DNA from: Actinomadura oligospora ATCC 43269
GTDB taxonomy: Bacteria; Actinomycetota; Actinomycetes; Streptosporangiales; Streptosporangiaceae
Length of the DNA: 64,000 nt
Assembly (NCBI RefSeq): GCF_000518265.1
Contig: NZ_JADG01000008.1
Coordinates: 1 to 64,000 of the forward strand
Direction: 5' to 3'
Positions within the stretch are counted from its first letter, which is position 1; each line of letters opens with the position of its first letter. Shown here one piece after another: positions 3,431 through 48,053 of the stretch. Below the pieces are notes generated by a model. That model saw only the letters and a program-made list of their open reading frames with translations. It did not search any database and was not told the origin of the DNA. The position numbers were made by a program, and so were the translations under genes.

Positions 3431-4786
3431 TTAGGCGGGGGTTTCGGGCTTGGGGCGGGTCAGGGGGGCCAGGAGGAGGGCGGCGCCTGCGGCGACCAGG
3501 AAGGAGAAGAGGGAGGCGCTCATCCAGGAGGCGGGGGTGAAGTGGAGGGCCTTCTGGACGTCCTGCCAGAGGTCGGTCCAGTGGGCGACGGTGCCGGGGT
3601 TGATGAGCTGGTAGACGACGATGCCGGCGAGCCAGGCGACGATCATGTTCCAGCGGGCGGGGGCGGAGCGGGCGGTGTTCCAGCCGCGTCGGCCGCTGCC
3701 GAGGAAGAAGTCGGCGGCCAGGACGCCCAGCATGGGGACGAAGACCGAACCGATCAGTGACAGGAATCCGGCGTAGTCGTTGATGTCCAGGGCCAGCGCG
3801 AGAACCGTGATCAGGACGCCCAGCGCGACCGACAGGACGCGGCGGTCGGCGCGTGGGACGAGGTTCTGGATCGACACGGCCGTGGAGTAGACGTTCGCGA
3901 AGGACTGGTCGGCCTCACGCAGGACGAAGATCGCGAAGATCAGCGCGCCCAGCGTGACGTGCAGGAACGGGTCGTAGATCCGGGACGAGTCGCCCGCGAC
4001 CAGGGCCAACGCGAACAGGCCGAGCACGTAGGCGATGATCTGCGTGATCGAGTAACCGACCGTGGCCGCGCCGAAGGCGGCGCGCTGCGTCCGGGAGTGG
4101 CGGGTGTAGTCGGCGGCGACCGGGACCCACGAGATCGACACCGCGAGCGCCGCGTCCGCGCCGATCCAGAACCCGTTCCAGGAGCCCCGGTTCAGGTCGG
4201 GCAGCGGCTCACGCAGCAGCTGGACGTAGAAGTAGACCAGCGCGACGCAGACCGCGACCGTCACGTAGCGGCGCAGCATCCGGACGGATCCGAGCGGCCA
4301 GATCGTCAGGACGGTCGTGATCACACCGGCGGCGACCACGTAGACCCAGCGCGGCACGCCGTCGTAGAGGGCCTGGGCCGCGCCCGCGATGGTGATCAGT
4401 TCGAAGGTGCCCCAGCCGATCAGCTGCGCGACGTTCAGCAGGGTCGGCAGGTAGGACGGCCGGGCCCCGAACAGTCCGCGCAGGAGCACCATCGCGGGCT
4501 GGCCGGTGCGCGCGCCGGGGACGGCGGCCAGGCCCAGCATCAGGCCGCCGATCACCGTTCCGACGATCATCGCGGTGATGCCCGCCATGATCGAGATGGT
4601 CGGCTTGCCGTCCTCGGTCGGCGCGAGCACGGTGTACGCGCCGGAGAACGCGAGGAGGCTGACGCCGAGGTTGGCCCAGAACGCCGACTGGTCCCAGAAG
4701 CCCAGCACCCTGGGCGCGGGCTGGTCGAGGGTGTACGGGGCCTCGTCGCGCGGGGCGTCGACGGACTTCGGTTGCACAGCGGACAC
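3431..4786 (-). CDS. cytX: Hydroxymethylpyrimidine transporter CytX (NCS1 family)
   Basis: Integral membrane permease of the nucleobase:cation symporter-1 family, 451 aa, with about 12 hydrophobic segments and the family-type N-terminus (LGFWDQSAFWANLGVSLLAF). CytX members import the thiamine precursor HMP or related pyrimidines. The assignment to CytX rather than a generic cytosine/purine permease rests on the TPP riboswitch directly upstream. The start is GTG at 4784-4786. The GTAGGGAG that ends the riboswitch lies 6 nt upstream and is also the only good ribosome binding site, which supports this start. A TenA thiamine-salvage gene occurs elsewhere in the window (35.4-36.0 kb). Exact substrate is inferred, not shown. 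Confidence 0.87.
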   Translation of the reverse strand: MSAVQPKSVDAPRDEAPYTLDQPAPRVLGFWDQSAFWANLGVSLLAFSGAYTVLAPTEDGKPTISIMAGITAMIVGTVIGGLMLGLAAVPGARTGQPAMVLLRGLFGARPSYLPTLLNVAQLIGWGTFELITIAGAAQALYDGVPRWVYVVAAGVITTVLTIWPLGSVRMLRRYVTVAVCVALVYFYVQLLREPLPDLNRGSWNGFWIGADAALAVSISWVPVAADYTRHSRTQRAAFGAATVGYSITQIIAYVLGLFALALVAGDSSRIYDPFLHVTLGALIFAIFVLREADQSFANVYSTAVSIQNLVPRADRRVLSVALGVLITVLALALDINDYAGFLSLIGSVFVPMLGVLAADFFLGSGRRGWNTARSAPARWNMIVAWLAGIVVYQLINPGTVAHWTDLWQDVQKALHFTPASWMSASLFSFLVAAGAALLLAPLTRPKPETPA

Positions 4787-4792
4787 TGCACG

Positions 4793-4882
4793 CTCCCTAC
4801 GCCGGCATTACCCGGACAGGTTCATGCGGTCGGCGGCGCCGCGTTCTGCCGCCCTCTCAGCCCGGTTGGCCCGAGCTCCCGC
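4793..4882 (-). promoter_or_regulatory. TPP riboswitch (THI element)
   Basis: Read on the minus strand, the element contains the THI-box cores GGGAGCTCGGG, GGCTGAGAGGGC, then CCGCATGAACCTG and GGGTAATGCCGGCGTAGGGAG split across the 3' arm. CTGAGA and the ACCTG...GGGTAATGCC...GGGAG series are the invariant TPP-binding elements. The 3' end pairs with the 5' end to form P1, and the 3' GGGAG doubles as the cytX Shine-Dalgarno sequence, so TPP binding should directly mask translation initiation. Confidence 0.95.
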
Positions 4883-4904
4883 GGTGTTCCGTTAAGACGG
4901 GCAA

Positions 4905-4934
4905 ATGGTACATCGAACGTTCCAGGGAGTGGAA
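4905..4934 (-). promoter_or_regulatory. Possible cytX promoter
   Basis: On the minus strand TTCCAC (4929-4934) and TACCAT (4905-4910) are separated by 18 nt, resembling a weak -35/-10 pair placed just upstream of the TPP riboswitch. This is pattern matching only. Confidence 0.3.
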
Positions 4935-5171
4935 CGCCCAGGGATCCGCCTTTTTTCGCGGCCCTGGCAAGCCCGACCACATGCCCCGCCGAGCCCGGCC
5001 CTCGTCCTCACCCAACTCCCCCAACCCGCATAGGCGCAGCGCTCGTGAAGCCACGGAGATGCGGAGGGTTCGATTCGCTCGGCGGAGGTCCGCGCAGGGG
5101 AGAGTGTCCCCCGCCCGCTCGACGGGGCGGCCTCCTCGTGTCGGCGCGGGGCGGGCAGGGGGAGTGCGGGG

Positions 5172-5507
5172 TTAGGCGATGTGTGGGGGTGCGTCGGTGT
5201 GGCCGTCCATGGGGCGGCCTGCCTCCAGCCAGCGCTTCATGCCGCCGGTGACGTTCTTGGCGATCCAGCCGGCCTGGTTGAGGGCGACGGTGACCTGCGC
5301 GGACCGCATCCCGGACCGGCACACGACGTAGATCTCGCGGTCGCGGGGGATCTCGACGGCGCGGTCGCTCAGCTCGCCCATCGGGATGTGGACCGCGTCG
5401 GGAGCGTGCCCGGCGTCCCATTCGTACTGTTCCCGGACGTCCAGCAGGTACGCGTCTTCCGGTACCTCGGCAGCGTCCACGGCCGGGACGTCGTTCCCGA
5501 AGTTCAT
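5172..5507 (-). CDS. Single-domain rhodanese sulfurtransferase
   Basis: Small cytosolic rhodanese-fold protein, 111 aa, one domain. It has the expected features: LLDVREQYEWDAGHAPDAVH near the N-terminus and an active-site loop CRSGMRS with the persulfide-carrying Cys, then GGMKRWLEAG near the C-terminus. The start ATG at 5505-5507 is chosen because GGGAGG lies just upstream and because the domain begins immediately after it; an open frame extends upstream to 5624 but without domain content. Such proteins move sulfane sulfur; the acceptor is unknown. It is divergent from the SSI-like lipoprotein gene. Confidence 0.88.
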   Translation of the reverse strand: MNFGNDVPAVDAAEVPEDAYLLDVREQYEWDAGHAPDAVHIPMGELSDRAVEIPRDREIYVVCRSGMRSAQVTVALNQAGWIAKNVTGGMKRWLEAGRPMDGHTDAPPHIA

Positions 5508-5713
5508 CCGAACCTCCCAAAAGGCCCCCGCCGCGTGGGTCGGGGACGTTCGCAACCTACAGATCCGAGCACGAATCCCATCATGCTCCAGGACCTTCCA
5601 TGTCCCGCCGCCCGTCCGCCACACGCAGACTCACCCCTGCGTCCCGGACGTCGCGCACCGCGGCGGCCGGAATCGCAGGGAACCGTCCGGACGGCTGTAA
5701 CGTCGAATCGTCT

Positions 5714-6172
5714 ATGCGGTATCGGATGCTCCTTTTCACACCGGCCGCCCTGGCTCTGGTGATGTCGGCCGCCGCCTGCGGTTCCGAACACGCCAAGTCG
5801 GGGACGTCGGTGACCCCGCCGAAGGACCAGGTCGCGCCCAGCGGCTCCTCCGCGAACCACCTGACCGTCAGTGTCCGGGCGTCCGCCCAGGCTCCCGCCA
5901 AGACCTGGACCCTGACCTGCGATCCCACGGGCGGCGACCTCCCGAAGGCTGCTCAGGCGTGCACGGCCCTGGCCAAGGCCCCGGACGCCTTCAAGCCCGT
6001 CCCGCCGGACATGATGTGCACCAAGATCTACGGCGGTCCGGAGGTCGCCACGGTCAAGGGCACCTGGCACGGCCAGGCGATCGACACCAAGTTCACCCGG
6101 ACGGACGGCTGCCAGCTGGCCCGCTGGAGCAAGGTCGCCCCCCTCTTCGGAGGCGTCCCACCCGTCCGCTGA
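5714..6172 (+). CDS. Subtilisin-inhibitor-like (SSI) lipoprotein
   Basis: 152-aa exported protein. The signal peptide ends in a lipobox (VMSAAAC) with Cys22 as the predicted lipidation site, so it should be anchored to the outer face of the membrane. The mature part matches the Streptomyces subtilisin inhibitor fold: CDPTGGDLPKAAQAC, MCTKIYGGPEVATVKGTW and DGCQLARW, with four Cys in the two expected disulfide positions. By alignment to SSI the reactive site is CTK-IY, giving Lys104 at P1, which predicts inhibition of trypsin-like rather than subtilisin-like proteases. Most SSI proteins are freely secreted; lipid anchoring is less usual. The start was chosen for the signal peptide; there is no strong ribosome binding site. 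Confidence 0.85.
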   Translation: MRYRMLLFTPAALALVMSAAACGSEHAKSGTSVTPPKDQVAPSGSSANHLTVSVRASAQAPAKTWTLTCDPTGGDLPKAAQACTALAKAPDAFKPVPPDMMCTKIYGGPEVATVKGTWHGQAIDTKFTRTDGCQLARWSKVAPLFGGVPPVR

Positions 6173-6630
6173 CGACCCCGCCCGCCTGCTGACGGCCCCG
6201 CCCGTTCGCTGACCGCTCCGCCTGATGGCCCCGTCCGCCCACCTGACGGCCTGGCCCTTCCGCCGCCGGGACCCGCCGGACGGCCTGGCCCGTCCACTGG
6301 CGGGCCACGCTGGACAGCCCTGCGCACGCCGGATGGTCCTGCCTGCCGGATGGCCCGCTTGCTGGCGGGCCCGCCGGACGGCCCTGCCAGTCCGCCTAAC
6401 AGCCCGGCCGCTGGCGGGCCCGCCGGACGGCCCTGCCTGGAGGACGGCCTTGCCGGTCTACCTGACGGCTCGGCCTGTCCGGGGACGTGGCGGCGCGTCT
6501 GTTGAACATGCTCCCTACCCACCCCGCCAACCCCCGGCCGCGTCCGCTCCCAGCATGGGATCGGGGCGCGGTCGGCTCACGTTCGGCCTCAGGCGTCCCC
6601 GAAGCTCGCGGCCGCACCGCGCGGAGGGGG
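6173..6630. repeat. Degenerate gacggcc-type repeats, no gene
   Basis: Gap between convergent genes. From about 6180 to 6485 it consists of imperfect repeats of phrases such as ctggcgggcccgccggacgg and gccctgcc at irregular spacing. The longest similar units recur near 6350 and 6410. No protein or RNA gene was recognised; the rest (6490-6630) is unremarkable. Confidence 0.6.
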
Positions 6631-7494
6631 CTACTTGAGGAGGCGGGAGAGGCGGCGGTCGGCCAGGGGCTTGCCGCCGGTCTGGCAGGTCGGGCAGTAC
6701 TGCAGGGACGAGTCGGCGAACGAGACCTCGCGGATGACGTCGCCGCAGACGGGGCACTTCTCGCCGGTGCGGCCGTGGACGCGGAGGCCGGTCTTCTTCT
6801 CGGCCTTGAGATCCTGCGCGGCGAGGCCCTCGGAGCGGGCGACGGCGTCGCGAAGGGTGTCGATGACGGCGTCGTAGAGGGTCTGGATCTCCTCGTCGGT
6901 GAGGGAACCGGCGATCTTGAAGGGCGACATCTTCGCGACGTGCAGGACCTCGTCGGAGTAGGCGTTGCCGATGCCCGCGACGATCTTCTGGTCGCGGAGC
7001 AGGCCCTTGATCTGGGTGCGTTTGCCCCGGACGATGCCGGCCAGCGTGTCGACCGTGAAGGACGCGGCGAGCGGGTCGGGGCCGAGTGAGGCGACGCCCT
7101 CCACGTCGGACGCGTCGCGCACGACGTAGACGGCCAGGCCCTTCTTGGTTCCGGCCTCGGTGAGGTCGAAGCCCGAGCCGTCGTCCAGGTGGACGCGCAG
7201 GGCGAGCGGGTTCTTGCCGCCGGGACGGACGGGCTTGACGGGCACCTCGTCACGCCAGCGCAGCCACCCGGCGCGGGCCAGATGGACGACCAGGTGCAGC
7301 CCGTCCGCGTCGATGTCGAGGAACTTGCCGTGCCGGGCGACGCCGGTGATCGTGAGCCCGCCGAGGGAGGTGACCGGCGGGTCGTAGGTCTTGAGCGCGG
7401 AGATGGCGAGAACATCGACGCGTGCGACGGCGTGGCCGACCGCGCGTTCCCGCAGGAACGCGGCGAGCGACTCGACCTCGGGAAGCTCGGGCAT
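6631..7494 (-). CDS. Fpg/Nei family DNA glycosylase
   Basis: Bifunctional DNA glycosylase/AP lyase of the formamidopyrimidine/endonuclease VIII family, 287 aa, for excision of oxidised bases. After Met removal Pro2 (PELPEVE) would be the catalytic nucleophile with Glu3 next to it. Lys57 in RHGKFL matches the conserved beta-turn lysine. The C-terminal zinc finger has the CPVC...CPTC pattern, with QTGGKPLADRRLSRLLK after it. Sequence alone does not separate MutM from the actinobacterial Fpg-like paralogues, so no symbol is given. The gene stands alone and faces the copper operon divergently. Confidence 0.88.
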   Translation of the reverse strand: MPELPEVESLAAFLRERAVGHAVARVDVLAISALKTYDPPVTSLGGLTITGVARHGKFLDIDADGLHLVVHLARAGWLRWRDEVPVKPVRPGGKNPLALRVHLDDGSGFDLTEAGTKKGLAVYVVRDASDVEGVASLGPDPLAASFTVDTLAGIVRGKRTQIKGLLRDQKIVAGIGNAYSDEVLHVAKMSPFKIAGSLTDEEIQTLYDAVIDTLRDAVARSEGLAAQDLKAEKKTGLRVHGRTGEKCPVCGDVIREVSFADSSLQYCPTCQTGGKPLADRRLSRLLK

Positions 7495-7659
7495 GCTTCA
7501 CAGTATCCGAGGACGGCCGTCGTCCACAGCGCTGTGGAAAGCTGTGGAAAACCCTGTGCACGGCGTCGGTAACCTCGGCGCGAGGGACGTTCGCGCCGGA
7601 TATACCTTGGCAAATGCCCCCGTTCCGACGACCGCGCGCGGCGGCCGGGGCGCGGGGCA

Positions 7660-7668
7660 TGTGGATAA
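7660..7668 (-). promoter_or_regulatory. DnaA-box 9-mer
   Basis: Plus strand TGTGGATAA, a perfect DnaA box on the minus strand, in the fpg-copZ gap. Related TGTGGAAA words occur at about 7536-7555. Confidence 0.4.
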
Positions 7669-7787
7669 CCGGCCCGCCAGGGGCCGTCCGGGGACCCTCT
7701 GAGGCCCACCGGGCAGGCCGTCCGGGCGGCGCGGGACGGCGGGACGTATCACCAGATATCCCAGCAATGTGATGCAGGTCTCGCAAT

Positions 7788-7808
7788 AACCCCTAGGGGG
7801 TAGGGGTT
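7788..7808. promoter_or_regulatory. CsoR-like copper operator 1
   Basis: Contains AACCCCTAGGGGG followed by TAGGGGTT. This GC-rich palindrome resembles the CsoR/RicR operator class (TACCCC...GGGGTA). It lies about 100 nt upstream of copZ. Confidence 0.65.
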
Positions 7809-7848
7809 GCGATAGGTGTGACCCTGTGGCAGCATAAGGGCCACGAGA

Positions 7849-7863
7849 TACCCCCAGGGGGTA
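7849..7863. promoter_or_regulatory. CsoR-like copper operator 2
   Basis: Near-perfect palindrome TACCCCCAGGGGGTA, a textbook-looking CsoR-type operator, 40 nt upstream of the copZ start. Together with operator 1 it brackets a probable promoter (7806-7840). Repressor release by Cu(I) is known for CsoR; here it is inferred, and no csoR gene is in the window. Confidence 0.75.
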
Positions 7864-7903
7864 CCTCGAGGACAGCGAAAACGAGCACCGAGGAGTCAGG
7901 GAC

Positions 7904-8107
7904 ATGAGCACCGCCACCTACACCGTCACCGGAATGACCTGCGGCCACTGCGTCGGCTCGGTCAAGCAGGAGGTCGGCTCGATCAGCGGCGTCAGCGACG
8001 TCCAGGTGGAGCTGGCGAGCGGCAAGGTCACCGTCACCAGCGAGGCGCCGCTGGACGACGCCGCGTTCCGTGCCGCCATCGACGAGGCCGGATACGAGGT
8101 CGCCTGA
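7904..8107 (+). CDS. copZ: Copper chaperone, HMA domain (CopZ-like)
   Basis: 67-aa heavy-metal-associated domain. The Cu(I)-binding motif GMTCGHC (Cys13, Cys16) is followed by the usual beta-alpha-beta pattern ending in DEAGYEVA. It should deliver Cu(I) to the CopA ATPase encoded two genes downstream. Its start follows GGAGTCAGGGAC, and the two CsoR-like palindromes lie just upstream, so copper-induced expression is likely. First gene of the copZ / secreted protein / copA operon. Confidence 0.93.
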   Translation: MSTATYTVTGMTCGHCVGSVKQEVGSISGVSDVQVELASGKVTVTSEAPLDDAAFRAAIDEAGYEVA

Positions 8108-8190
8108 CCCGGTGAGATCGGTGCCGCGGCGGCCGTCCGAGTGAGGGACGCCGCGGCACCGGCCGCCGCCGGGACGGGCCGAAAGGACGG

Positions 8191-37801: not shown

Positions 37802-40315
37802 TCAGCCGTTCTTGCGGCGGCCCAGGATTCCGCGTCGTCCCTGGTAGGAGCGGATACGGGCCTCGGTTTCCTCCAGGGTCTGGCGGGTCTTCTCGGTGAG
37901 GTCGAGTTCGTCCGACGGGGCCGTGGAGGTCGTCTCGACGAGGTCCAGTTGGAAGTCGAGTTCGCTGGGCAGGCGGGCGCCGACGGCCTCGCGGAGTTCA
38001 CGGCCGAGGTTCGCGGCGGCGTCGTGCGCGGTCTTGACCAGCAGGTGGGCGGCATCGTCGGCGTCCTTGAACGAGTGGCCGTAGAGGTGGACGGCGATCA
38101 TCCGGGCCTCGAGCGCGGCGGCCAGGAGGTTGGGGCCGGTGAGCGGCCACGCGGAGCCGTCGATGGCGCGCAGGATCGGCATGGGCCGCATGCCGGTGGC
38201 GGTCGCCTCGGCGATCAGGCGGCCCACGTCGCGGAACGGCGTGTCGCCCGGGAGGGCGTGCAGGACGGTCCGGTACTCGTCGGCCGCGACGTTCGGGTGG
38301 CGCTTGGCGGCGTCCTCCCACCAGCGCTGGTAGGCGGGCCAGTCGGCCATGCCGGGGTTGACGGCGCGTCCGCGCACCACGGCTTCGACGACGGCGGCCC
38401 GGTTCGGCCCGTCGACCGCGCACAGGGCCCCGGCCAGGGCCACGACCAGCGCCACCTGGTCGGGATCGCGGGCCCACTGGAGGTCCGCGAGGTGCTCGAG
38501 CAGCGCGTGCTGGACGGTCACGGTGAAGCGGCGGAGCGACTCGTCCGCGACGAGGGTCCGGAAGGTGGCGGCGTAGGCGTACCGGTCGGGGATCTCCAGG
38601 TGGACGGGCGCCTCGTCGGCGGTCATCCGCAGGAGGTCGAGGACGGCGGCGTCCGCGCCACGGGTCGGGCGGACGTCGCCCAGCCGGTCCAGCCAGCTCC
38701 TGCGCTCGGACGAGGGCAGGCCGGTCAGCCAGCGGATCAGGACGGCGGCGAGCCGGTCGAGCCGTTCGCGGCGGGCCGCCGAGGAGACGAGCAGCGCCAC
38801 GCAGTCCGCGCCGTGCCGGGCGAACGCGGCGATCTCGGACAGCGACACGGTCGTGTCGGGGGTGCGCAGCGCGTGGAAGGGGTACAGCAGGTCGTGCGGT
38901 GCGACTCCGGCGAGGAGATCGAGCCAGGCGTCCTCGTCGTGGACGCCCGCCTGGTCCAGGTCGGCGACCAGCGCGCAGATGAGGGTGGATTGGCCGCGCA
39001 GGGCGCGAAGCATCGCAGGACGATCCGCCGTGCGCGGGTCCGTCCAGCGCTCTATGAGCTTGGCCGTGGTCTGCACCGGGGCGAGGCCCAGTCGCGGATC
39101 GCGGGACGTCCCGACCACGTCGGCCAGCAGCTTGTCCGTGTGACCGAGCGCATCCGCTAGGCGGACGTAAGGATTCGCATCCTCGGCCGGTGCGTTCCGG
39201 ACGCGCCGCAAGACCTCATTGGTGAGGGCACGCCACGGTTCACTCGGAACGCTCACGCCCAGCTCTTGCCAGACGTTCTGAACCGCGTCCAGTCCCCCAC
39301 CAAGGCGGATCAAAGCCGCTAGGAGAAGCTCATGGTCGGACCTGCGGGGGAGTTCCTTGTAGCGACCGCTCTCCAGCAGAGCAGCCACCTCGGACACCTC
39401 GCACTCGTTCTTCCGCACGCGCTCGAGGACAAGGGCAGGACGGTCCAGATCGACCAGGATGTTGTAGGCCCGGCTCGGTTCCGCGTTCACCAAGTACTCG
39501 GACCTGGAGGAGAGGTGGTGCAGCACCTCCAGCAGGCTGCGATGCTCGATCGAGCGGCGCAGCTCGTGCGCGTACGCGTAGGCGAGGGCCGCGTCCGTGG
39601 GAGTCTGCGGCTCCGAGACGCGCCAGTCGAGTTCGAAACTGCCCGGACGTGAGTGGTACGCGAACGTCAGGCGGATGTTGGAGTTGTCCCCACGCAGCCA
39701 GGTCGCAGCGGTCAGCCCAGGACGCCAGCCATAGGGGAGCAGTGCGGCCACCGCGTCGAGGAAACGAAGCCGGACGGTGTGGTCCAGGCCGTCCGCCCCA
39801 GTGATGGTGACAGGACCTTCAAGGAGCAACGCCGCTGCCACTGCGGCACGTCCGAGCCAGTCGTGATCCTCGATGTCCCGGGCGATGTCTTCGGGCGCAT
39901 AGGCCGGGACGTCTAGCGCGGCCGGTGCGAAGCCGTCCGGGCCGAGCCCGGATACTGCGCGCACGAGGCTCGCATAGGAAACCGGCGCGTGGACGAACTG
40001 CTCGTACGGAAAACAGCCGTAACGCGTCCGGACGATCGGACGGCCCGCCGCGTCGGTGCCGTCCGTCCAGTCGTGGATGGCGACGCCCAGGTAGCTGCCG
40101 CGGTCGTCGAGGACCTCGGTGAGGCTGATCCAGGGCAGCGCCTCCGCGCCGGTGCGCTCCGCCGGCGGGTTCCCCAGCGTGTACTGGTCGAGGATCGTGG
40201 TGAAGTCGTCCGCGTTGAAGAAGCCCCCGCCGGTGCCGAGGATCCCGTAGTCGTCGTAGCTGCCGGGGGTCTTGCCGCGCACGGCCCAGCCGGCCGAGAG
40301 ACGGGCCGTCGTCAT
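37802..40315 (-). CDS. GAP1-like GTPase-associated protein
   Basis: 837 aa, no membrane segment or signal peptide. The N-terminal 220 residues resemble the GAP1-N2 module of GTPase-associated protein 1 (YDDYGILGTGGGFF, GVAIHDWTDGTDAAGRPIV, RTRYGCFPYEQF, LPYGWRPGLTAATWLRGDNS in pieces). The rest is helical and Leu/Ala/Arg-rich, like the GAP1 middle and C-terminal parts. Comparative genomics by others links this family to GTPase-based conflict systems. ATG overlaps the GTPase stop (ATGA). Last gene of a four-gene operon. Biochemical activity unknown. Confidence 0.75.
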   Translation of the reverse strand: MTTARLSAGWAVRGKTPGSYDDYGILGTGGGFFNADDFTTILDQYTLGNPPAERTGAEALPWISLTEVLDDRGSYLGVAIHDWTDGTDAAGRPIVRTRYGCFPYEQFVHAPVSYASLVRAVSGLGPDGFAPAALDVPAYAPEDIARDIEDHDWLGRAAVAAALLLEGPVTITGADGLDHTVRLRFLDAVAALLPYGWRPGLTAATWLRGDNSNIRLTFAYHSRPGSFELDWRVSEPQTPTDAALAYAYAHELRRSIEHRSLLEVLHHLSSRSEYLVNAEPSRAYNILVDLDRPALVLERVRKNECEVSEVAALLESGRYKELPRRSDHELLLAALIRLGGGLDAVQNVWQELGVSVPSEPWRALTNEVLRRVRNAPAEDANPYVRLADALGHTDKLLADVVGTSRDPRLGLAPVQTTAKLIERWTDPRTADRPAMLRALRGQSTLICALVADLDQAGVHDEDAWLDLLAGVAPHDLLYPFHALRTPDTTVSLSEIAAFARHGADCVALLVSSAARRERLDRLAAVLIRWLTGLPSSERRSWLDRLGDVRPTRGADAAVLDLLRMTADEAPVHLEIPDRYAYAATFRTLVADESLRRFTVTVQHALLEHLADLQWARDPDQVALVVALAGALCAVDGPNRAAVVEAVVRGRAVNPGMADWPAYQRWWEDAAKRHPNVAADEYRTVLHALPGDTPFRDVGRLIAEATATGMRPMPILRAIDGSAWPLTGPNLLAAALEARMIAVHLYGHSFKDADDAAHLLVKTAHDAAANLGRELREAVGARLPSELDFQLDLVETTSTAPSDELDLTEKTRQTLEETEARIRSYQGRRGILGRRKNG

Positions 40316-41553
40316 CCGGCGCTCCCGCCCAGCCCGCTCCGCGGCCCGCCGGTATCGCCGGACGGGGCCTGGGCCAGCCGGTCCACCAGCCACATGATCG
40401 GCTCCATCACGTTGATCGGGCGGACCTTGCCGCGCAGGTGCATCGAGGTCGAGCCGTCCGTGTGGGTGCGGCGGACGAGGTTGCTGTAGTTCTCGTCGTC
40501 GAACTTCCCGGTCCGCGGGTCGATGTAGAAGCCCACGGCGGACGTCACGAAGTAGCGGGTGCGGTCGGGGGAGAAGTGCTGTCTGATCTCGCGGCGGATG
40601 GCGTCGATGTTACCGATGCCGTCCGCGCGGCAGAGCTCCTCGAAGAACCGCTCGGCGACCTCGGCGTGGACGGCCGGGAACAGGAAGTCGGGGTCGGTCA
40701 CCGACTCGTAGCCGCCGCGCCGCGCGATGTCGCGCACCCACAGGTGGTCGTACTTGGTGATGCAGACGGCCAGGTGGTGCGGCAGGTAGTGGTCGCCCCG
40801 GCTCTCCGGCGCGCGCTGGCTGATCTCCAGGATCGTCCGGTTGAAGAACTGGTAGGAGTCGCGGGCCTCGCGCTCGCGGGTCGGGTCGAGCAGCAGGATG
40901 AGCCCGCCGCACGCGGCGAGGTGCTCGACCAGCTCGCGCCGGTCACGGCCGCCGCCCTCGCCACGCCGGGACGGCTCGGGCGCGCCGGTCGCGAACCGCG
41001 GCCCGCCCGATGACCCTCCGGACGCGCTCGTGGCGAACCGGGGCCCACCGGACGAACCGGACCCCGAGCCGCCGGACGAGGCGGCCTCGGCGGCCCCGGC
41101 CCGGCTGTCGAACAACCGTCCCGGCGGGTCGACGAAGTCAAGGTGCACGCGGATCGGGACGTCCCGCTTCGCGTTCGGCCGGTACCACTTCGTCCGCTCC
41201 CTGACCTGCCGCGTTCCGTGCAGCCGCCAGGACAGCTTCTCCGACGAGTTCGTCGCGTGCGGGAACACCCGCTGCTCGCTGAGCTGGTCGGTGCTGGACG
41301 CCAGGAACGCGGTCGAGCCGTCGTTCGCGCCGTCCAGCCGCCAGCCCGGATCGCCCAGGCTCATCGCGATGCGCAGCGCGGCGAGGAAGGTCGTCTTGCC
41401 GCTCTGCGGCGCGCCCCAGATGCCGATGCTGGTCTTACCGGGACGAACCTCCTCCACGGGAGGGGACGGGGCGGGCGCGTCCGGCGGCGGTGTCGCCTCC
41501 CCCGCCTCCGGCCCGGGCGCCGCCTCCGGCGCGGGAGTCGTGGGTTCGGTCAT
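40312..41553 (-). CDS. TRAFAC-like P-loop GTPase of the conflict operon
   Basis: 413 aa. After a Pro/Ala-rich N-terminus the Walker A motif is GAPQSGKTT (47-55); DPPG (142-145) supplies the DxxG element; TKYD (266-269) stands in for NKxD, predicting guanine specificity. A Gly/Ser-rich insert between them (about 155-205) carries two copies of SSGGPRFAT 14 residues apart. The C-terminal half has HHLAVCITKYDHLWVRDIA and YFVTSAVGFYID. Operon position (overlapping both neighbours by 4 bp) indicates that it works with the vWA-like and GAP1-like proteins as a regulatory switch. That role is inferred. Confidence 0.83.
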   Translation of the reverse strand: MTEPTTPAPEAAPGPEAGEATPPPDAPAPSPPVEEVRPGKTSIGIWGAPQSGKTTFLAALRIAMSLGDPGWRLDGANDGSTAFLASSTDQLSEQRVFPHATNSSEKLSWRLHGTRQVRERTKWYRPNAKRDVPIRVHLDFVDPPGRLFDSRAGAAEAASSGGSGSGSSGGPRFATSASGGSSGGPRFATGAPEPSRRGEGGGRDRRELVEHLAACGGLILLLDPTREREARDSYQFFNRTILEISQRAPESRGDHYLPHHLAVCITKYDHLWVRDIARRGGYESVTDPDFLFPAVHAEVAERFFEELCRADGIGNIDAIRREIRQHFSPDRTRYFVTSAVGFYIDPRTGKFDDENYSNLVRRTHTDGSTSMHLRGKVRPINVMEPIMWLVDRLAQAPSGDTGGPRSGLGGSAG

Positions 41554-43496
41554 GCGGGGTCACCTTCCACGGGGACGGGGGCCATCAGCGGGAACGGGAC
41601 GCTCGCGCCGCCCGGCGGGACGAGCCCCATCGCGTCCGCCAGCGCGCGCGGCGTCAGGCCCTCCAGGGTGAGCCGCCGGTGCGCGCCCAGGGCCGTCCAG
41701 TACTCGCGGTCGGGGTCGGTCGAGCCGTCGAGGACGGTGACCAGCCGCACGCCGAACCGGTGCAGGGCGTCGGCCGCGGCACGCCAGTCGTCCTTGCGCG
41801 GGCACGGCTGGGCGAGCTCGCGCAGCGGGTCCTGGCCCTGGCCGCGCGGATGCGGCGGACGGCCCGCCAGCACGACCAGGACCCGGTACGGCGGATGGTG
41901 CATCTCGTTCAGCCAGCCGCGCGCGTCCCGCTGCCGCTCCAGGAACTCGACGATCTCGGCGAGCGCGTCCTCCAGCGGCGCCGCGTCGGACTGGTACGGC
42001 TGCATCCGCCGCTCCAGGGCGGCGAACGCGTCCAGGGCGCGGTCGGGATCGGCGTCCCACACGCCCTCGACGACGGCGTCGCGCTCCTCCCCCAGCTCGA
42101 ACGAGTGCTCGCGGTAGCCGCGCACCGACACTCCGGCGCGCTCCCCCAGGTCGGCCGAGACCAGTTCGAGCGTTCCGGTGAGCAGGTCGCGGCGGGCGGC
42201 GGCCGGGACCGGCGGGCCGCCCAGCTCGATCGCGCACAGCACGTCCACGGCGGCGGCCGGTGCCGGGCACGCGCGCGTGTGCGCGTACAGCTGGTCGAGC
42301 GGACGCGGATCGGGACGGACGTCCGGGAGATCCGGCCAGCGGACGCGTCCGGGCCCGTCGAGCGTGGCGCGCAGCGACAGCACACCGCGCGGCAGCCGGG
42401 TCGCCAGCACCGACACCGGACGCGGGTCGTACAGCATCGCGGGGAACTCGGGCGCGGCGACGACCGCGAGCACGACGTCGTTGTCCGCGCCGCCGGGGCC
42501 GCGCGCGACCCGCACGACGGCCTCCTGCCCGGACGTGCTCCCCGCAGGGAACAGCGGAACCAGGACAGGCTGCGCGGACGGCCCGTCGAACTGCGCCCCG
42601 ACCAGCCAGTACGGCGCACGCAGTGGCAGCCGGGCGACCGCGTCGGCCAGCTCGTCCACGGCGGGCCGCCCGATCCGGACGACCCGCGCGTCCGGTCGCA
42701 GCAGCTCCAGCCGGGAGACCGTCAAGCCCGGCACGGCCCAGCCCGGAGCGGAGTCGACCAGGACGGTCGTGACGCCGGCGGGCAGCCGCTCGGCGATCCG
42801 CGCGAGCCCGAGGTCGAGCGCCTCGGTGAGCCGCGCGCGGTCGACATCGTGCAGACCGCCCGCGAGCTGGAACGTCCTCTCGGCCGCTCCGGACGCGAGA
42901 TGCGAGCCGACCAGACGCTCCCAGGCGTGATCCTCGCGCGACCACGGGTCGCTCGGGCCGTCCACGGCGTCCGGACGGACGACCATCACGGACACGCCGT
43001 CCGCGCCGACGTCGATCAGCACCGGCGAATGCGCGTCGTACCGGACGAGCTCGTCGAACGCCCACTGCGTCGTCCACGTGGACGGATCGCGGTTGAGATC
43101 GGGACGCCCGAACTGCAGCGTCCACCCGCCGACGCCAGACGTCGCCGACGCCGCCGCCCTTGACTCATCGAGGAGCCGCGTCCGCTCCCGCCCGGCCTCT
43201 TCGCACGCGCGCGTCCACTGCCCGTCATCAGGGACGCCGCCGCGCACGAACGGCCGCGCCTCCTCACCCACGCGCGCCGCCGCACGTAGGTCATAACGAA
43301 GCCGCGCCTCGCTGAGTTTCCTCCCGTGGACGTCGTCGTCAGACGGCGTCCAGGCGCACTCCGCGCACGCGGAACGCGCGAACTCGTCCGGCACCAGTCC
43401 GCACACCGGGCAGGGCAACGGCACCTCGATCTCCGGCGGAACGTTCTCTTCCAAAAGCTTGTCGGCTTCCAACGGAAGTGGCGCGTCAGGATCCAC
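41550..43496 (-). CDS. Zinc-ribbon, vWA-like GTPase-associated protein
   Basis: 648 aa, soluble. An N-terminal zinc ribbon has Cys29, Cys32, Cys44 and Cys47 (CPVC...CAEC). The central part (about 150-460) has alternating strands and helices with no clear catalytic motif. The C-terminal part contains YRVLVVLAGRPPHP followed by a helix-strand pattern (DALHRFGVRLVTVLDGS), compatible with a vWA-like fold. Proteins of this layout accompany the GAP1-like and GTPase genes in actinobacteria. It overlaps the GTPase gene by 4 bp, and 30 bp separate it from the DUF4407 gene. Function unproven. Confidence 0.65.
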   Translation of the reverse strand: MDPDAPLPLEADKLLEENVPPEIEVPLPCPVCGLVPDEFARSACAECAWTPSDDDVHGRKLSEARLRYDLRAAARVGEEARPFVRGGVPDDGQWTRACEEAGRERTRLLDESRAAASATSGVGGWTLQFGRPDLNRDPSTWTTQWAFDELVRYDAHSPVLIDVGADGVSVMVVRPDAVDGPSDPWSREDHAWERLVGSHLASGAAERTFQLAGGLHDVDRARLTEALDLGLARIAERLPAGVTTVLVDSAPGWAVPGLTVSRLELLRPDARVVRIGRPAVDELADAVARLPLRAPYWLVGAQFDGPSAQPVLVPLFPAGSTSGQEAVVRVARGPGGADNDVVLAVVAAPEFPAMLYDPRPVSVLATRLPRGVLSLRATLDGPGRVRWPDLPDVRPDPRPLDQLYAHTRACPAPAAAVDVLCAIELGGPPVPAAARRDLLTGTLELVSADLGERAGVSVRGYREHSFELGEERDAVVEGVWDADPDRALDAFAALERRMQPYQSDAAPLEDALAEIVEFLERQRDARGWLNEMHHPPYRVLVVLAGRPPHPRGQGQDPLRELAQPCPRKDDWRAAADALHRFGVRLVTVLDGSTDPDREYWTALGAHRRLTLEGLTPRALADAMGLVPPGGASVPFPLMAPVPVEGDPA

Positions 43497-43526
43497 CGGA
43501 CGCCTCCCCCGACTGGCGGATCCGGG

Positions 43527-45392
43527 TCACCGCCCGTCCCGCCGGTTCAGCCAACGCGTCAGCCCCCCGAGAATGCCGCGCCGAGCGGGCTCGGCCATCG
43601 GGGACGGGTAGTGCCGCGTCTCCCCACGGGGACGAACCCGGTCACCCGTCGGACCACCGGCACCGTTCGGCCCGTCCTGCCCCCACGCCGGAGGCGGCTG
43701 CGTGCCCGTCCTGATCACCGGAGGGCCTGCCGGCGGAAACGCGGGCCCACCAGCACCGTTGGGCATCGGCGGCCTGGACCGGCTCAACCCGCCGGGAGGA
43801 GCCGTCGGAGGAACGTGACCGTTCCCCACATGCCCATGCCCAGCCCCAGCCGTCCCGGCCCCAGCCCCAGCCGTCCCGGCCCCAGCCCCGGCCCCGTTGG
43901 ACTCGGCGGAGAAGCGCCGGAGCTGCTCACGCTCCCAGCGCTCCAGTTCGAGCCGCTGCAACCGCCGCTCCACCTCGATGATCTCCGCCACGGACGTCTC
44001 GACCAGCTCGTTCCGCCGCTCCTGGAGCCGCCGGGCGAAGTCGGTCTGCCCGGAGTTCTCCCGCAGCCCGACGCCCTCCTGCTTGCGGACCTGGTCGTCC
44101 AGCAGCAGCCGGTCGCGGGAGCGGACCTTCTCCACCGCCTCGTCGTACGCGCCGGGCGGGCCGAACAGCGACAGCACCTTGACGATGATCGGCAGGCACT
44201 CCAGGACGGTGATGAACAGGAACAGCAGGAGCCGCGCCGACTGGAGCTGGCTCTCGCCCTCGGACGCCCTGTCCAGGCCCTTCAGGCGGATGAGCAACCC
44301 GGTGTTGTTCTTGTTGTTCTTCTCGAACGCCGCGCGGTCGGACTGCTGCCGGCCGCGCAGCGTCTTCAGCTCGCTCTGCACGCCGGGGAGTTTCTGCTGC
44401 GCCTGGGCGACGAGCACGTCCTTGTTCTTCGCCGCGGCCTGGTTCAGCGCGCCCGACTTCGTGCTGATCCGCTTGTTGATCTGGTCGATCTGCGTTTTCG
44501 CCTGGTCACGCCGCCGGACGAACTTCTGGTAGCGCGGCCCGTCGCCGCTCCGTCCGCTGGTGCCCTTGCAGCGGTCGCCGGTCAGTTCGCAGGCGGCCTT
44601 GTCGTCGTAGTCGTTGAACTCCTTCTGCAGCGCCGGGAGCTGCGCCCGCAGCTGCTTGATCTCCGCGTCGTCCTCGGGATTGGCGAGGCCGTCGCCGGTG
44701 CGCTGCCTCAGCAGCTGCGCCTCCTGCTGCTCCAGCACGCGGATCCGCTGCGAGTCCGGGCCGTTGTCGAGGTTCTGCTGGAACTTCCGGGAGTCCTCGT
44801 CGTGGATCTTGTCCACGGCGACCGCGACCTCGTCGTTGAAGATCTGGAGCACCAGCGGCGTCGAGATGATCACTCCGAACAGCAGCGCCATCGCGACCCG
44901 CGGCAGCGCCAGCAGGACGGTCAGCACCTTGCCCTGGCTGCGCGTCAGGGACACCACGAGCCAGCGGTCCAGGTTCAGGATGACCAGGAACCACAGCATC
45001 GAGAGCGGCACGGCCGCCCACACCGACGCGCCGACCGCCATGCGCAGCGCGAAGAACATCGAGACCGACGCGAGCGACGCCGTCGTGAGCACCGCGCCGC
45101 CGATCCCGATGTATTTCGCGCGGTCGGTCGTCGCCCGCCGCAGGATGTCGGGATCGGCACCGGACAGCCACACCAGGACGTTCTTCATCGGCCCCGTCCG
45201 TCTCGCAGAGTCATCCGTTGTGAGACGCCACTTCCGGGTCGATAGTTCCGGAGCGTCCCGAAGAAACCAGCTCCGGGTGAGCCATCGCGAGGAACGCAGG
45301 CGCTCCTCGGCCTCGCGTTCCTCCGGAGCGAAGGAGGCCGGCCGTCCGGCCGGAGCGTGGCGTGGTTCGGGCGGGTCGTTCGGACGCGTCAC
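43527..45392 (-). CDS. DUF4407 membrane protein
   Basis: 621 aa. Four hydrophobic segments: three in the first 200 residues (YIGIGGAVLTTASLASVSMF, VWAAVPLSMLWFLVILNLD, MALLFGVIISTPLVLQIF) and one around 400 (LLLFLFITVLECLPIIV). Between the third and fourth lies a long extracytoplasmic coiled-coil-rich loop (about 200-385). The C-terminal tail is first coiled coil, then Gly/Pro/Ala-rich. This is the DUF4407 layout. DUF4407 proteins are proposed membrane components of conflict systems. An internal ATG at 45188 (MKNVLVWLSGADPDIL) is a credible alternative start. First gene of the operon. Confidence 0.82.
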   Translation of the reverse strand: MTRPNDPPEPRHAPAGRPASFAPEEREAEERLRSSRWLTRSWFLRDAPELSTRKWRLTTDDSARRTGPMKNVLVWLSGADPDILRRATTDRAKYIGIGGAVLTTASLASVSMFFALRMAVGASVWAAVPLSMLWFLVILNLDRWLVVSLTRSQGKVLTVLLALPRVAMALLFGVIISTPLVLQIFNDEVAVAVDKIHDEDSRKFQQNLDNGPDSQRIRVLEQQEAQLLRQRTGDGLANPEDDAEIKQLRAQLPALQKEFNDYDDKAACELTGDRCKGTSGRSGDGPRYQKFVRRRDQAKTQIDQINKRISTKSGALNQAAAKNKDVLVAQAQQKLPGVQSELKTLRGRQQSDRAAFEKNNKNNTGLLIRLKGLDRASEGESQLQSARLLLFLFITVLECLPIIVKVLSLFGPPGAYDEAVEKVRSRDRLLLDDQVRKQEGVGLRENSGQTDFARRLQERRNELVETSVAEIIEVERRLQRLELERWEREQLRRFSAESNGAGAGAGTAGAGAGTAGAGHGHVGNGHVPPTAPPGGLSRSRPPMPNGAGGPAFPPAGPPVIRTGTQPPPAWGQDGPNGAGGPTGDRVRPRGETRHYPSPMAEPARRGILGGLTRWLNRRDGR

Positions 45393-45986
45393 CGCACCCC
45401 CGGAATTCCTCGATGGAACGGATCGAGAAGCGGGGTCAGCCTAACCCGAGCCATTCCGGCGCACCCCCACGAACGCCCCCAACAGTCACGAAGCGTAACC
45501 CGACCGTGATCGTCCCTCCCTCTGTCCACCTCGACCGGCTTCGCTGCCCACAGCCCGCCCACGCCTGGCCCGCCGTCACCGTTCGCTCATCACGAGGCTG
45601 GCCCCGTGGCGGGCCCCGCCCGCTACCCGCCAGTTCTTCTTCGACGACCATCACCACTTGTGCGACATAGCCAAGCGGCGCCCCGCCTCCCGGATGCATG
45701 ACCGAAATCCGTCCGCTTCGCGGACCCGCCAGCCCGGAGGACGGCCGGATAATTCGCTCTTACCTGCGAAAACTCACGGGTTCATCAGGGGTCTTCATGG
45801 CGCACGAGACAGAGTTATCTGGCCCTGATAGAGCCGTCCGGAACGCGAGCCTCGGTCTACGCTGACTGCCTGGACGTCCACGGAACCCCCAGCTCAGAGA
45901 CGTCCGCCAGCAGGCGTTTCACGCGACCCTTCCCTCGGGCGGGAGAGTCTGCAATCATCCCGAATCCAGGGGAATTGGGGGATCTT
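45393..45986. promoter_or_regulatory. Divergent intergenic region of the conflict island
   Basis: 594 bp between the DUF4407 operon (minus) and the EACC1/caspase operon (plus). It should carry both promoters. An 87-codon minus-strand frame at 45436-45699 is open but shows no domain, so it is not called. No obvious operator was found. Positions 45700-45860 are less GC-rich than the flanks. Confidence 0.45.
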
Positions 45987-46355
45987 GTGGAGCTACTCAT
46001 CCACATCGAAGGCGCTGAGGATGAACTTGAGCTGCACTCCTTGGAGGGCTGGCTGCGGGACGAGCCGGAACTCCGCGGAACCGCTCGGCTGAGCCGGCTG
46101 GCCGCCCCTCCCTTGCCGGGTGAGATGGGTGGTGGCCTGGACACCCTCCAGGTGGTCTTTACCGACGCTGTTTCGGCAAGTTCGCTCGTCGTAGCGATCG
46201 CCGCGTGGCTGGACAACCACCGCAAGAGCAAGGCGCGCGGCTCCGAGGCCACGGATGTCGTCATCCAGCGAGGAGACACCCGGATCGCCGTTTCGGGACG
46301 CTCTCTGGAGGAGGTCCTGGAGGCGCTTGACCAGCAGGATGGCGCCAGCTCGTGA
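45987..46355 (+). CDS. EACC1-like effector-associated protein
   Basis: 122 aa. It resembles effector-associated constant component 1 (EACC1): LHSLEGWLRDEPELRG near the N-terminus, a central hydrophobic segment (TLQVVFTDAVSASSLVVAIA), WLDNHRKSK, and a C-terminal strand-helix (VVIQRGDTRIAVSGRSLEEV). EACC1 proteins accompany varied effector genes, often caspase-like peptidases, in actinobacterial conflict systems and may control or target the effector. GTG at 45987 was preferred for the spacing to GGGGGAT; an in-frame TTG lies at 45975. It overlaps the caspase-fusion gene by 4 bp (GTGA). Confidence 0.78.
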   Translation: MELLIHIEGAEDELELHSLEGWLRDEPELRGTARLSRLAAPPLPGEMGGGLDTLQVVFTDAVSASSLVVAIAAWLDNHRKSKARGSEATDVVIQRGDTRIAVSGRSLEEVLEALDQQDGASS

Positions 46356-47992
46356 CTCAGCCCGATCCGCAAGCGTCTCGGGCCGTCCTGATCGGAACCG
46401 CTCAGTATGAGCACTACGGGTCGCTTCCGGGCGTTTCTGCGAACCTGATCGCCCTGCAGGAGGAACTCAGCCGTCCCGAGGTCTGGGGGCTGACACCGCA
46501 GGACTGCCAGGTGGTCATGGACCCGCGGGACCCCAGAGAGATGGTCCACCCGGTGACCGAGGCCGGGCGCGAGGCAACCGATGTCCTCCTGGTCTACGTT
46601 GCCGGTCACGGCATCCGCGATCACCAAGGGAATCTGCTGCTCGCCCTGCCGTCCACGGAAAGGGATCCGGCGACCCACGGGTACGGCACCGTTGCGTACG
46701 AACAGTTGCGGTTGACCGTCAAACGGGCCCGCGCACGCTATCGGGTGGTGATTCTGGACTGTTGTTACAGCGGTGCCGCCATCAACACGATGGGGGCGAG
46801 TGACGCGTCGGATCAGACTCCGATCGAGGGCACCTATGTGCTGGCCTCCGCACCGGCGACCCGGACCGCCATGGCTCCGGAGGGCGAAGAGTTCACCGCG
46901 TTCACCAGCGAACTCATCACCGTCATTCGCGAAGGAATCCCCAACGGGGACGAGTACCTGACCCTTGATGCGATCTTCAACCGTGTGTACGGCGAGCTTC
47001 ATGCGAAGGGGCTGCCTCACCCCTGGAATCAGGACCGTAACGCTGCGGGAAGTATCCCTCTGCTGAAGAACCGCGCGGTTGCGAGCCGGTCCGCTAACTC
47101 GCCGTCCGAGTATGGCGAGGTGCCTGGGGTCAAGCCGGGCCAGCTGTATCAGTCTCGGCGTGAACTCAGTGACGCCTATGTGCATCGCGCGCTTCAGGCC
47201 GGTATCTGTGGCAGCAAACACAAGGGTGGTGCCGAGTCCATCGTGGTCTCCGGCGGCTACGTCGACGATGAAGACCATGGTGACGTCATCATCTACACCG
47301 GGCACGGCGGACGCGATCCCAACACCGGTCGACAGGTCGCCGATCAGCGTCCGGCCGACAGCGGTAATGCGGCGCTCATCGCCAGCATCACCAGCCGTTA
47401 TCCCGTCCGGGTGATCCGGGGTGCCGCGGGCGATCCTGAGTACTCTCCGCCCATCGGATTCAGCTATGACGGCCTGTACACGGTGGAGAGTTACTGGGCG
47501 AAGCCAGGACGGGACGGGTTCCGCGTTCTTCAGTTCCGCCTGGAGAAGTCCAACGACCAAGCCCCCCCGGTCGCCCCCACGGGATCTCCCGAGGCTCGTG
47601 CCGGTTACGACCTTTCGCGTTGGGCTCCTGTTTCTCTCGACGTCTACCGAGACCGTCGCGTGGCAGCGTCCGTGTGCAGAATGCACAGCTACGAGTGCCA
47701 GCTGTGCGGGGTCGTCCTGCAGTCTCCGGACGGCCTGCAAATCACCCCGACCACGCATTTGAAGAGCCTTTCGCCGCCGCACCATGGACCGGACGTCCCA
47801 GAGAATGTCCTGTGCCTCTGTCCCACGCACAGAGTGCAACTCGACCTCGGAATCTTCACCATCGAGGACGACCTGACCGTCATCGACGAGACCACGGGTG
47901 CTCCTGTCGGTGAACTCATAGATCACCCGCGGCACAAGGTCAGCCCTGAGTACATCCGGTATCACCGGGGCCTTTACCGCCAGAAGCGCTAG
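46352..47992 (+). CDS. Caspase-like peptidase fused to SRA/YDG domain and HNH nuclease
   Basis: 546 aa, three domains. (1) Caspase-like C14 peptidase, about 8-240: catalytic His86 in VYVAGHG and Cys138 in ILDCCYSG. (2) SRA/YDG domain, about 255-400, a very strong match: PGVKPGQLYQSRREL, ESIVVSGGYVDDEDHGD, YTGHGG, PVRVIRG and YDGLY (372-376); SRA domains flip out and read modified cytosines. (3) HNH nuclease, about 440-505: CQLC (449-452), His469, ENVLCLCPTHR (Asn485, Cys490, His493). The usual PNHH of SRA-HNH enzymes is PTHR here, so nuclease activity should be tested rather than assumed. The SRA-HNH half resembles modification-dependent nucleases such as ScoMcrA; the caspase half is the unusual addition. 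Predicted to sense modified DNA and trigger cleavage and proteolysis (inference). GTG start. Confidence 0.9.
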   Translation: MTQPDPQASRAVLIGTAQYEHYGSLPGVSANLIALQEELSRPEVWGLTPQDCQVVMDPRDPREMVHPVTEAGREATDVLLVYVAGHGIRDHQGNLLLALPSTERDPATHGYGTVAYEQLRLTVKRARARYRVVILDCCYSGAAINTMGASDASDQTPIEGTYVLASAPATRTAMAPEGEEFTAFTSELITVIREGIPNGDEYLTLDAIFNRVYGELHAKGLPHPWNQDRNAAGSIPLLKNRAVASRSANSPSEYGEVPGVKPGQLYQSRRELSDAYVHRALQAGICGSKHKGGAESIVVSGGYVDDEDHGDVIIYTGHGGRDPNTGRQVADQRPADSGNAALIASITSRYPVRVIRGAAGDPEYSPPIGFSYDGLYTVESYWAKPGRDGFRVLQFRLEKSNDQAPPVAPTGSPEARAGYDLSRWAPVSLDVYRDRRVAASVCRMHSYECQLCGVVLQSPDGLQITPTTHLKSLSPPHHGPDVPENVLCLCPTHRVQLDLGIFTIEDDLTVIDETTGAPVGELIDHPRHKVSPEYIRYHRGLYRQKR

Positions 47993-48053
47993 TGCCCTCA
48001 GCTCCCGCGGCAGGGAGATTTCCTGGATGCGGGGTGTTGCCGAGTGGTGAGAG

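Follow-up and report, generated by a model that had tools for sequence, protein, structure and literature searches.

The four genes described here occupy positions 37802-45392 of a 64,000-nt stretch of contig NZ_JADG01000008.1 (hereafter, the window) from Actinomadura oligospora ATCC 43269, a filamentous soil bacterium. All four open reading frames are present on the minus strand, and a codon-model gene caller trained on the window picks each of them (4/4), so that the first-pass annotation, which had described four minus-strand genes with 30-bp or overlapping junctions, holds for coordinates, starts and junctions alike. The gene for the zinc-ribbon and vWA protein follows the stop codon of the DUF4407 gene after 30 bp, and the two remaining junctions, vWA gene to GTPase gene and GTPase gene to GAP1-like gene, are 4-bp overlaps at 41550-41553 and 40312-40315, respectively. 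Because of this 30-bp gap and the two overlaps, a single transcript is likely. The features are as follows, each with the evidence that defines it.

43527..45392, minus strand: DUF4407 membrane protein, 621 aa, GTG start (PF14362, hydropathy, conserved Cys, conserved start)
44253..44837, minus strand: coiled-coil loop of the DUF4407 protein, approximately residues 186-380, predicted to be extracytoplasmic, with an invariant CxxxxxxC pair (hydropathy, flanking-loop charge, Cys conservation)
41550..43496, minus strand: protein of 648 aa with a zinc ribbon, a middle beta-rich region and a C-terminal vWA fold (open reading frame, alignment of 39 relatives)
43356..43412, minus strand: zinc ribbon CPVC-x11-CAEC, Cys29, 32, 44 and 47 (sequence; kept in most full-length relatives)
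41610..42263, minus strand: vWA domain, residues 412-629, without the MIDAS DxSxS, which is replaced by E-L-G-G (AF2 model, Foldseek/VIA, residue counts)
40312..41553, minus strand: TRAFAC-type GTPase, 413 aa, a divergent DO-GTPase relative (G boxes, sub-threshold PF19993, profile-profile comparison)
37802..40315, minus strand: GAP1-like protein, 837 aa, with alpha/beta N and M regions (1 to ~240) and an alpha-solenoid (~290-780) (AF2 model, Foldseek, sub-threshold GAP1-M, profile alignment)
45393..45516, minus strand: conserved DNA upstream (promoter side) of the operon (85% identical to the equivalent DNA at the A. harenae and A. logoneensis loci, L031 and L032)

The conserved upstream DNA (45393-45516) includes the element CCGGAATGGCNCGGGTTA and could hold a putative promoter or operator. 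Searches of the four proteins against Pfam, PADLOC and NCBIfam gave a sole confident match, to DUF4407; PADLOC returned no family for the GAP1-like, vWA or DUF4407 proteins and only chance-level P-loop matches for the GTPase, and no recognisable effector domain was found in the four genes. A tRNA called by ARAGORN at 41984-42074 on the plus strand, antisense within the vWA gene, was judged spurious, having a 4-base anticodon and no amino acid.

Properties of the four proteins

The DUF4407 protein matches PF14362 over its full length (E 1.3e-77, 261.5 bits against a cut-off of 31.3), which places it in a family for which no functional paper was found in the literature searched, nor any paper with DUF4407 in its title or abstract. 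Its correct start is the GTG at 45392: the extension of 68-78 codons before the ATG at 45188 is open and in frame, and it is conserved as protein (VTRPNDPPE...WRLTTDDSxRR) in four species. Hydropathy delineates four hydrophobic segments; the coiled coil falls between the last two of them (predicted TM3 and TM4), and a Gly/Pro-rich tail is predicted to be cytosolic. Cys268 and Cys275, both in the loop between TM3 and TM4, are invariant in 37/37 relatives, and an oxidised, external loop would fit this invariance. The membrane protein with an extracytoplasmic coiled coil that was first proposed is thus retained, with the topology as predicted from hydropathy, loop charge and cysteines.

In the 648-aa protein, the four cysteines of the zinc ribbon are in place. 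Pfam gave no match anywhere in this protein, including its vWA-like domain; the vWA fold was nevertheless recovered by structure comparison of residues 412-629 (Foldseek E 1e-5 to 1e-4, Z ~15 (14-15)) from an AF2 model with moderate local pLDDT, the matches being integrin I domains, vWF A and the vWA domains of Ku and TFIIH. The zinc ribbon and the vWA-like domain named by the first-pass annotation are therefore both found, the second by fold and not by profile. The canonical MIDAS site (DxSxS...T...D) is missing: most of the 39 aligned relatives have E-L-G-G in place of DxSxS, and His464, Leu512 and Cys565 are invariant in the same alignment. Because the MIDAS is missing, ligand binding via the usual metal route is unlikely.

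The GTPase carries a G1 of GAPQSGKT, a G3 of DPPG, a G4 of TKYD and a G5 of SAVGF, in line with the family-wide boxes GAPxSGKT, DxPG, TKxD and SAxGF, the key residues of which are invariant in 40/40 relatives; its earlier description as a TKxD GTPase is confirmed. PF19993 matches the window protein below threshold (3.1e-4, under the curated cut-off), 38 of the 40 relatives have a DO-GTPase2 match, and comparison with canonical DO-GTPases in hhalign gives a profile-profile probability of 99%. These sequence comparisons make the protein a homologue of the DO-GTPases described by Kaur et al. 2020 (PMC7159879). It differs from them at the residue that follows DxxG: canonical DO-GTPases of the first type nearly all read DxAGE, whereas this position is R in the window GTPase and G, R, A or other residues among its relatives, with E in just 3/40. 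We read the Glu after DxxG as the Walker B glutamate meant by Kaur et al.

For the fourth protein, the open reading frame and the length of 837 aa stand as first described, and the assignment to GAP1 is much less secure. No Pfam model matches it even at E 0.1, so that ‘GAP1-like’ is an inference of the first-pass annotation and not a family match. Specifically, PF20013 (GAP1-N2) matches neither the window protein at E 0.1 nor any of 45 relatives at E 0.05 (0/45); the same model finds matches in 44 of 101 genomes, including that of A. oligospora itself at another locus. An AF2 model, built like that of the vWA protein on 5 sequences (the window and four related loci), contains an alpha-solenoid at residues ~290-780 with pLDDT mostly 75-95, preceded by 288 N-terminal residues of low confidence. 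Foldseek on this model gave non-specific helical-repeat matches only, and searches of the PDB with profiles of the GAP1-like and vWA alignments gave chance matches only.

Is this protein, then, a GAP1 at all? A different solenoid scaffold, unrelated to GAP1 and recruited to a DO-GTPase-related switch, would explain why GAP1-N2 is matched in none of the 45 relatives, why an hmmsearch with the protein's own profile finds 0 of 20 canonical GAP1-N2 loci, and why the profile-profile probability drops to 2%. We consider such a scaffold unlikely, if the least unlikely of the alternatives, in view of three observations. First, local hhalign runs align the protein with GAP1-N2 co-linearly over ~205 columns, starting at both N termini (P 3e-4 to 0.03); the probability is low, 2-38% depending on direction, but controls and reversed profiles reach at most 1.2%. 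(A run with -glob gave 78%, a value that we discarded in favour of the local runs.) Second, PF20014 (GAP1-M) is found in 15/45 relatives, below threshold, at approximately residues 146-209, the expected place. Third, the gene comes directly after that of the DO-GTPase-like protein, as in the published systems. This distant profile evidence is suggestive of GAP1 membership, and the protein is probably a very divergent GAP1. Because the Pfam GAP1 models fail and the distant evidence is only suggestive, we assign it to a third, divergent branch next to GAP1-N1 and GAP1-N2, a member of neither.

Co-occurrence, reduction and surroundings of the operon

The first-pass annotation had made its reading depend on co-occurrence of these genes elsewhere, and they do co-occur. 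The GAP1-like protein is present, patchily, in 90 of the 299 genomes of the order (~30%) and DUF4407 in 124; DUF4407 is found in 87 of the 90 genomes with the GAP1-like gene versus 37 of the 209 without it (Fisher p ~3e-41). At the level of loci, DUF4407 lies within 15 kb of 85 of 96 GAP1-like genes, several of the other 11 being on short contigs, and the order vWA, GTPase, GAP1-like is constant in dozens of loci. Because the identical gene order recurs across dozens of genomes, the gene set is far beyond chance. In a wider sample, 29 of 395 genomes of the class carry a GAP1-like family member, all within three families, and a phylum-wide sample searched with the GTPase profile adds just two weak P-loop matches. 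Plasmids yielded one divergent Streptomyces GTPase relative and two distant DUF4407 matches; viral contigs gave no match in a scan that relies on matching peptide patterns.

Across ~60 neighbourhoods, the genes appear in four layouts. The longest is a nine-gene operon: DUF4407 (sometimes divergent), radical SAM (Fer4_12), coiled coil, tandem AAA+, zinc-ribbon/vWA, GTPase, GAP1-like, ASKHA and GrpE-like. The names ASKHA and GrpE-like are our reading, Pfam HSP70 matching the former at only E 0.044 and no model matching the latter. In the nine-gene operon of A. barringtoniae (L033), the radical SAM activase-like, coiled-coil and tandem CbbX-like AAA+ genes at 3716-8170 form a fixed three-gene block. 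In the second layout, a kinase and DUF4407 are divergent from vWA, GTPase and one or two GAP1-like genes. The third is the four-gene form, present in four Actinomadura genomes. The fourth, in two other families (f19 and f20), consists of paired units of GTPase and GAP1-like genes, often facing each other. Two facing units are common at the f19 loci (L164-L176), suggesting paired or competing switches, and a further canonical-type DO-GTPase lies nearby at L170, L173, L177, L179 and L180.

In a maximum-likelihood tree of 69 GTPases, the window groups with A. harenae, A. logoneensis and A. rupiterrae (support 100/99); the nine-gene A. barringtoniae operon is the sister of this four-gene clade (100/100), which falls within a nine-gene clade (100/99). 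Since it is nested there, the four-gene form is best read as a single loss of two blocks, the radical SAM–coiled-coil–AAA block and the ASKHA–GrpE-like block. The lost blocks were sought in trans in the A. oligospora genome, where nothing turned up beyond general CbbX-like AAA+ proteins and a single NrdG-like protein; a single-sequence search, which is weak evidence, found no ASKHA homologue.

What remains of the operon is under purifying selection, with dN/dS of 0.25-0.40 for the four genes; the corresponding values are 0.11-0.14 in a nearby glycosyltransferase and TenA-like gene and 0.11-0.34 in further neighbours. The flanking genes are common to the related species and dS is alike in operon and flanks (0.2-0.5). 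On these sequence comparisons, the operon has been passed down vertically here, and its sequence changes moderately fast. None of the four proteins is better conserved than DUF4407 (85-89%).

Two features of the surroundings deserve description. Upstream of the operon on the plus strand, at 45975-47992, an EACC1 gene (PF19953, 2e-24) is followed by a caspase-SRA-HNH fusion (NF047832, PF02182 and PF13391), a pair that we propose to be a caspase conflict system with a nuclease effector that would read modified DNA; the main text of Kaur et al. 2020 (PMC7159879) makes no mention of SRA. Like the systems treated here, the pair is another proposed conflict system, and it adjoins the operon, but it is a separate transcription unit, inserted only in the window's genome among the relatives compared. 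In A. harenae, ~80 bp stand in place of the ~2.5 kb at 45516-48053 that hold it, and the adjoining NERD-UvrD helicase is retained; in A. logoneensis the helicase is missing too. The spot thus looks like an insertion site. On the other side and close to the operon, 11826-35430 carry an extended series of genes that, judged by sequence alone, are of sugar-biosynthesis, glycosyltransferase, flippase-like and polyprenyl glycosylphosphotransferase-like type, probably an exopolysaccharide cluster.

Relation to described GTPase-centric systems

Kaur et al. 2020 described GTPase-centric systems that combine a DO-GTPase bearing a Walker B glutamate with a three-domain GAP1 protein of N1 or N2 type; in N2-type systems, the GTPase usually has two zinc ribbons and is accompanied by an FNIII protein (PMC7159879). 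The first-pass claim that the operon fits the proposed GTPase conflict systems is not supported in that form, as the operon departs from this published GAP1-N2 recipe. The DxAGE glutamate is absent; no N-terminal cysteine ribbon was found on the GTPase, the ribbon sitting on the vWA protein; no fn3 match was obtained in the four window proteins or in the accessory proteins of the A. barringtoniae locus; and the partner is DUF4407, which the main text of that paper does not mention.

Compared with the Hsp70 theme of GAP1-N2 systems (PMC7159879), the operon is alike in that a GTPase homologous to DO-GTPases is encoded immediately upstream of a large GAP1-type protein and in having a membrane component and an actinomycete distribution, and its nine-gene relatives add Hsp70-like and GrpE-like partners. 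Beyond the glutamate, the ribbons and the FNIII protein, it differs in lacking a Pfam GAP1-N2 match, and the new partners are DUF4407, radical SAM and tandem AAA+. The third GAP1-N2 theme of the same authors (kinase, PP2C and standalone vWA) is echoed by the many relatives in which the core occurs together with a Ser/Thr kinase and a vWA protein; these differ in that DUF4407 is present and a GAP1-N2 domain is not detected. The same genome does contain a canonical Hsp70-theme GAP1-N2 system (L108, contig C17, ~114-124 kb), comprising Hsp70, a large linked protein, a zinc-ribbon DO-GTPase, GAP1-N2 and a second TM GTPase.

The operon is, in our assessment, a trimmed-down and hitherto undescribed relative of the GTPase conflict systems, themselves known from computational work alone; the supplementary data of PMC7159879 may list such loci under another label. 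A bolder proposal would make it a third class of GTPase–GAP1 systems, widespread in filamentous actinomycetes, with DUF4407 as the sensor, a GTPase without its catalytic Glu, the GAP1-like protein as a true GTPase-activating partner and the four genes as the minimal working core. That all of these elements hold together strikes us as rather improbable.

Proposed working and competing roles

Our preferred reading, to which we assign a probability of roughly 0.45, is that the four genes specify the minimal core of a GTPase switch complex anchored in the membrane, belonging to a third DO-GTPase/GAP1 branch, that senses the envelope or an invader. The complex formation, sensing and hydrolysis in trans that we infer would proceed as follows. 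DUF4407 would sit in the membrane, where its external, disulfide-bearing coiled coil would sense an envelope disturbance or an invader and thereby change the cytosolic tail. The tail would be read by a complex of the GTPase, the zinc-ribbon/vWA protein as adaptor and the GAP1-like solenoid as scaffold, with GTP loading leading to assembly at the membrane; the vWA and solenoid proteins would be natural assembly parts and the GTPase the switch. Since the Glu following DxxG is missing from the GTPase, switching off probably depends on a residue provided in trans, which would most simply come from the GAP1-like partner, an idea that takes one motif position as its basis. In the nine-gene ancestor, the AAA+ and ASKHA/GrpE-like proteins would have remodelled the complex; the four Actinomadura species dropped these accessory blocks and retained the sensor–switch core.

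Could DUF4407 instead be the effector? In an abortive-infection version, formulated by analogy with the SLATT effectors of GAP1-N2 systems, the complex of GTPase, GAP1-like and vWA proteins would detect phage and cause DUF4407 to open as a pore in the membrane, with death or arrest of the cell as the result. The published GAP1 systems are indeed proposed conflict systems with SLATT TM effectors (PMC7159879), and the patchy presence in ~30% of the order's genomes, the kinship to these proposed systems and the adjoining insertion spot, with its EACC1-caspase-SRA-HNH cassette and NERD-UvrD helicase, count for an immune link. The conservation of DUF4407, however, is not that of a variable effector, and PADLOC gave nothing beyond chance-level P-loop matches. 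Moreover, the synteny of the operon in related species with dS like that of its flanks, its near absence from plasmids (one match) and the lack of a match in the viral contigs scanned do not favour a mobile defence cassette. Weighing these points, we think that a killing pore is improbable.

The opposite possibility, a housekeeping module of hyphal actinomycetes with no conflict role, perhaps a GTPase-regulated envelope-stress or cell-wall/differentiation complex, appears equally doubtful. Vertical inheritance speaks for it, as do matches confined to actinomycete genomes, mostly of 5-13 Mb, a Ser/Thr kinase that is frequently linked divergently with DUF4407, and the reported link between DO-GTPases and membrane stress (PMC11237479); yet absence from most genomes of the order, copy numbers of 0-3, repeated block loss and tandem GAP1-like duplicates would be unusual for an essential function.

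The membrane-anchored switch remains our preferred account. GTPase–GAP1 systems are among the commonest proposed conflict systems of multicellular bacteria, and no worked-out mechanism was found for them in the literature searched. The operon gives the DUF4407 family its first consistent set of partners, and the motif change after DxxG splits the GTPase family and predicts a testable difference in GTP hydrolysis. As a natural reduction of a nine-gene operon to four genes, it is also the smallest set to express and test.
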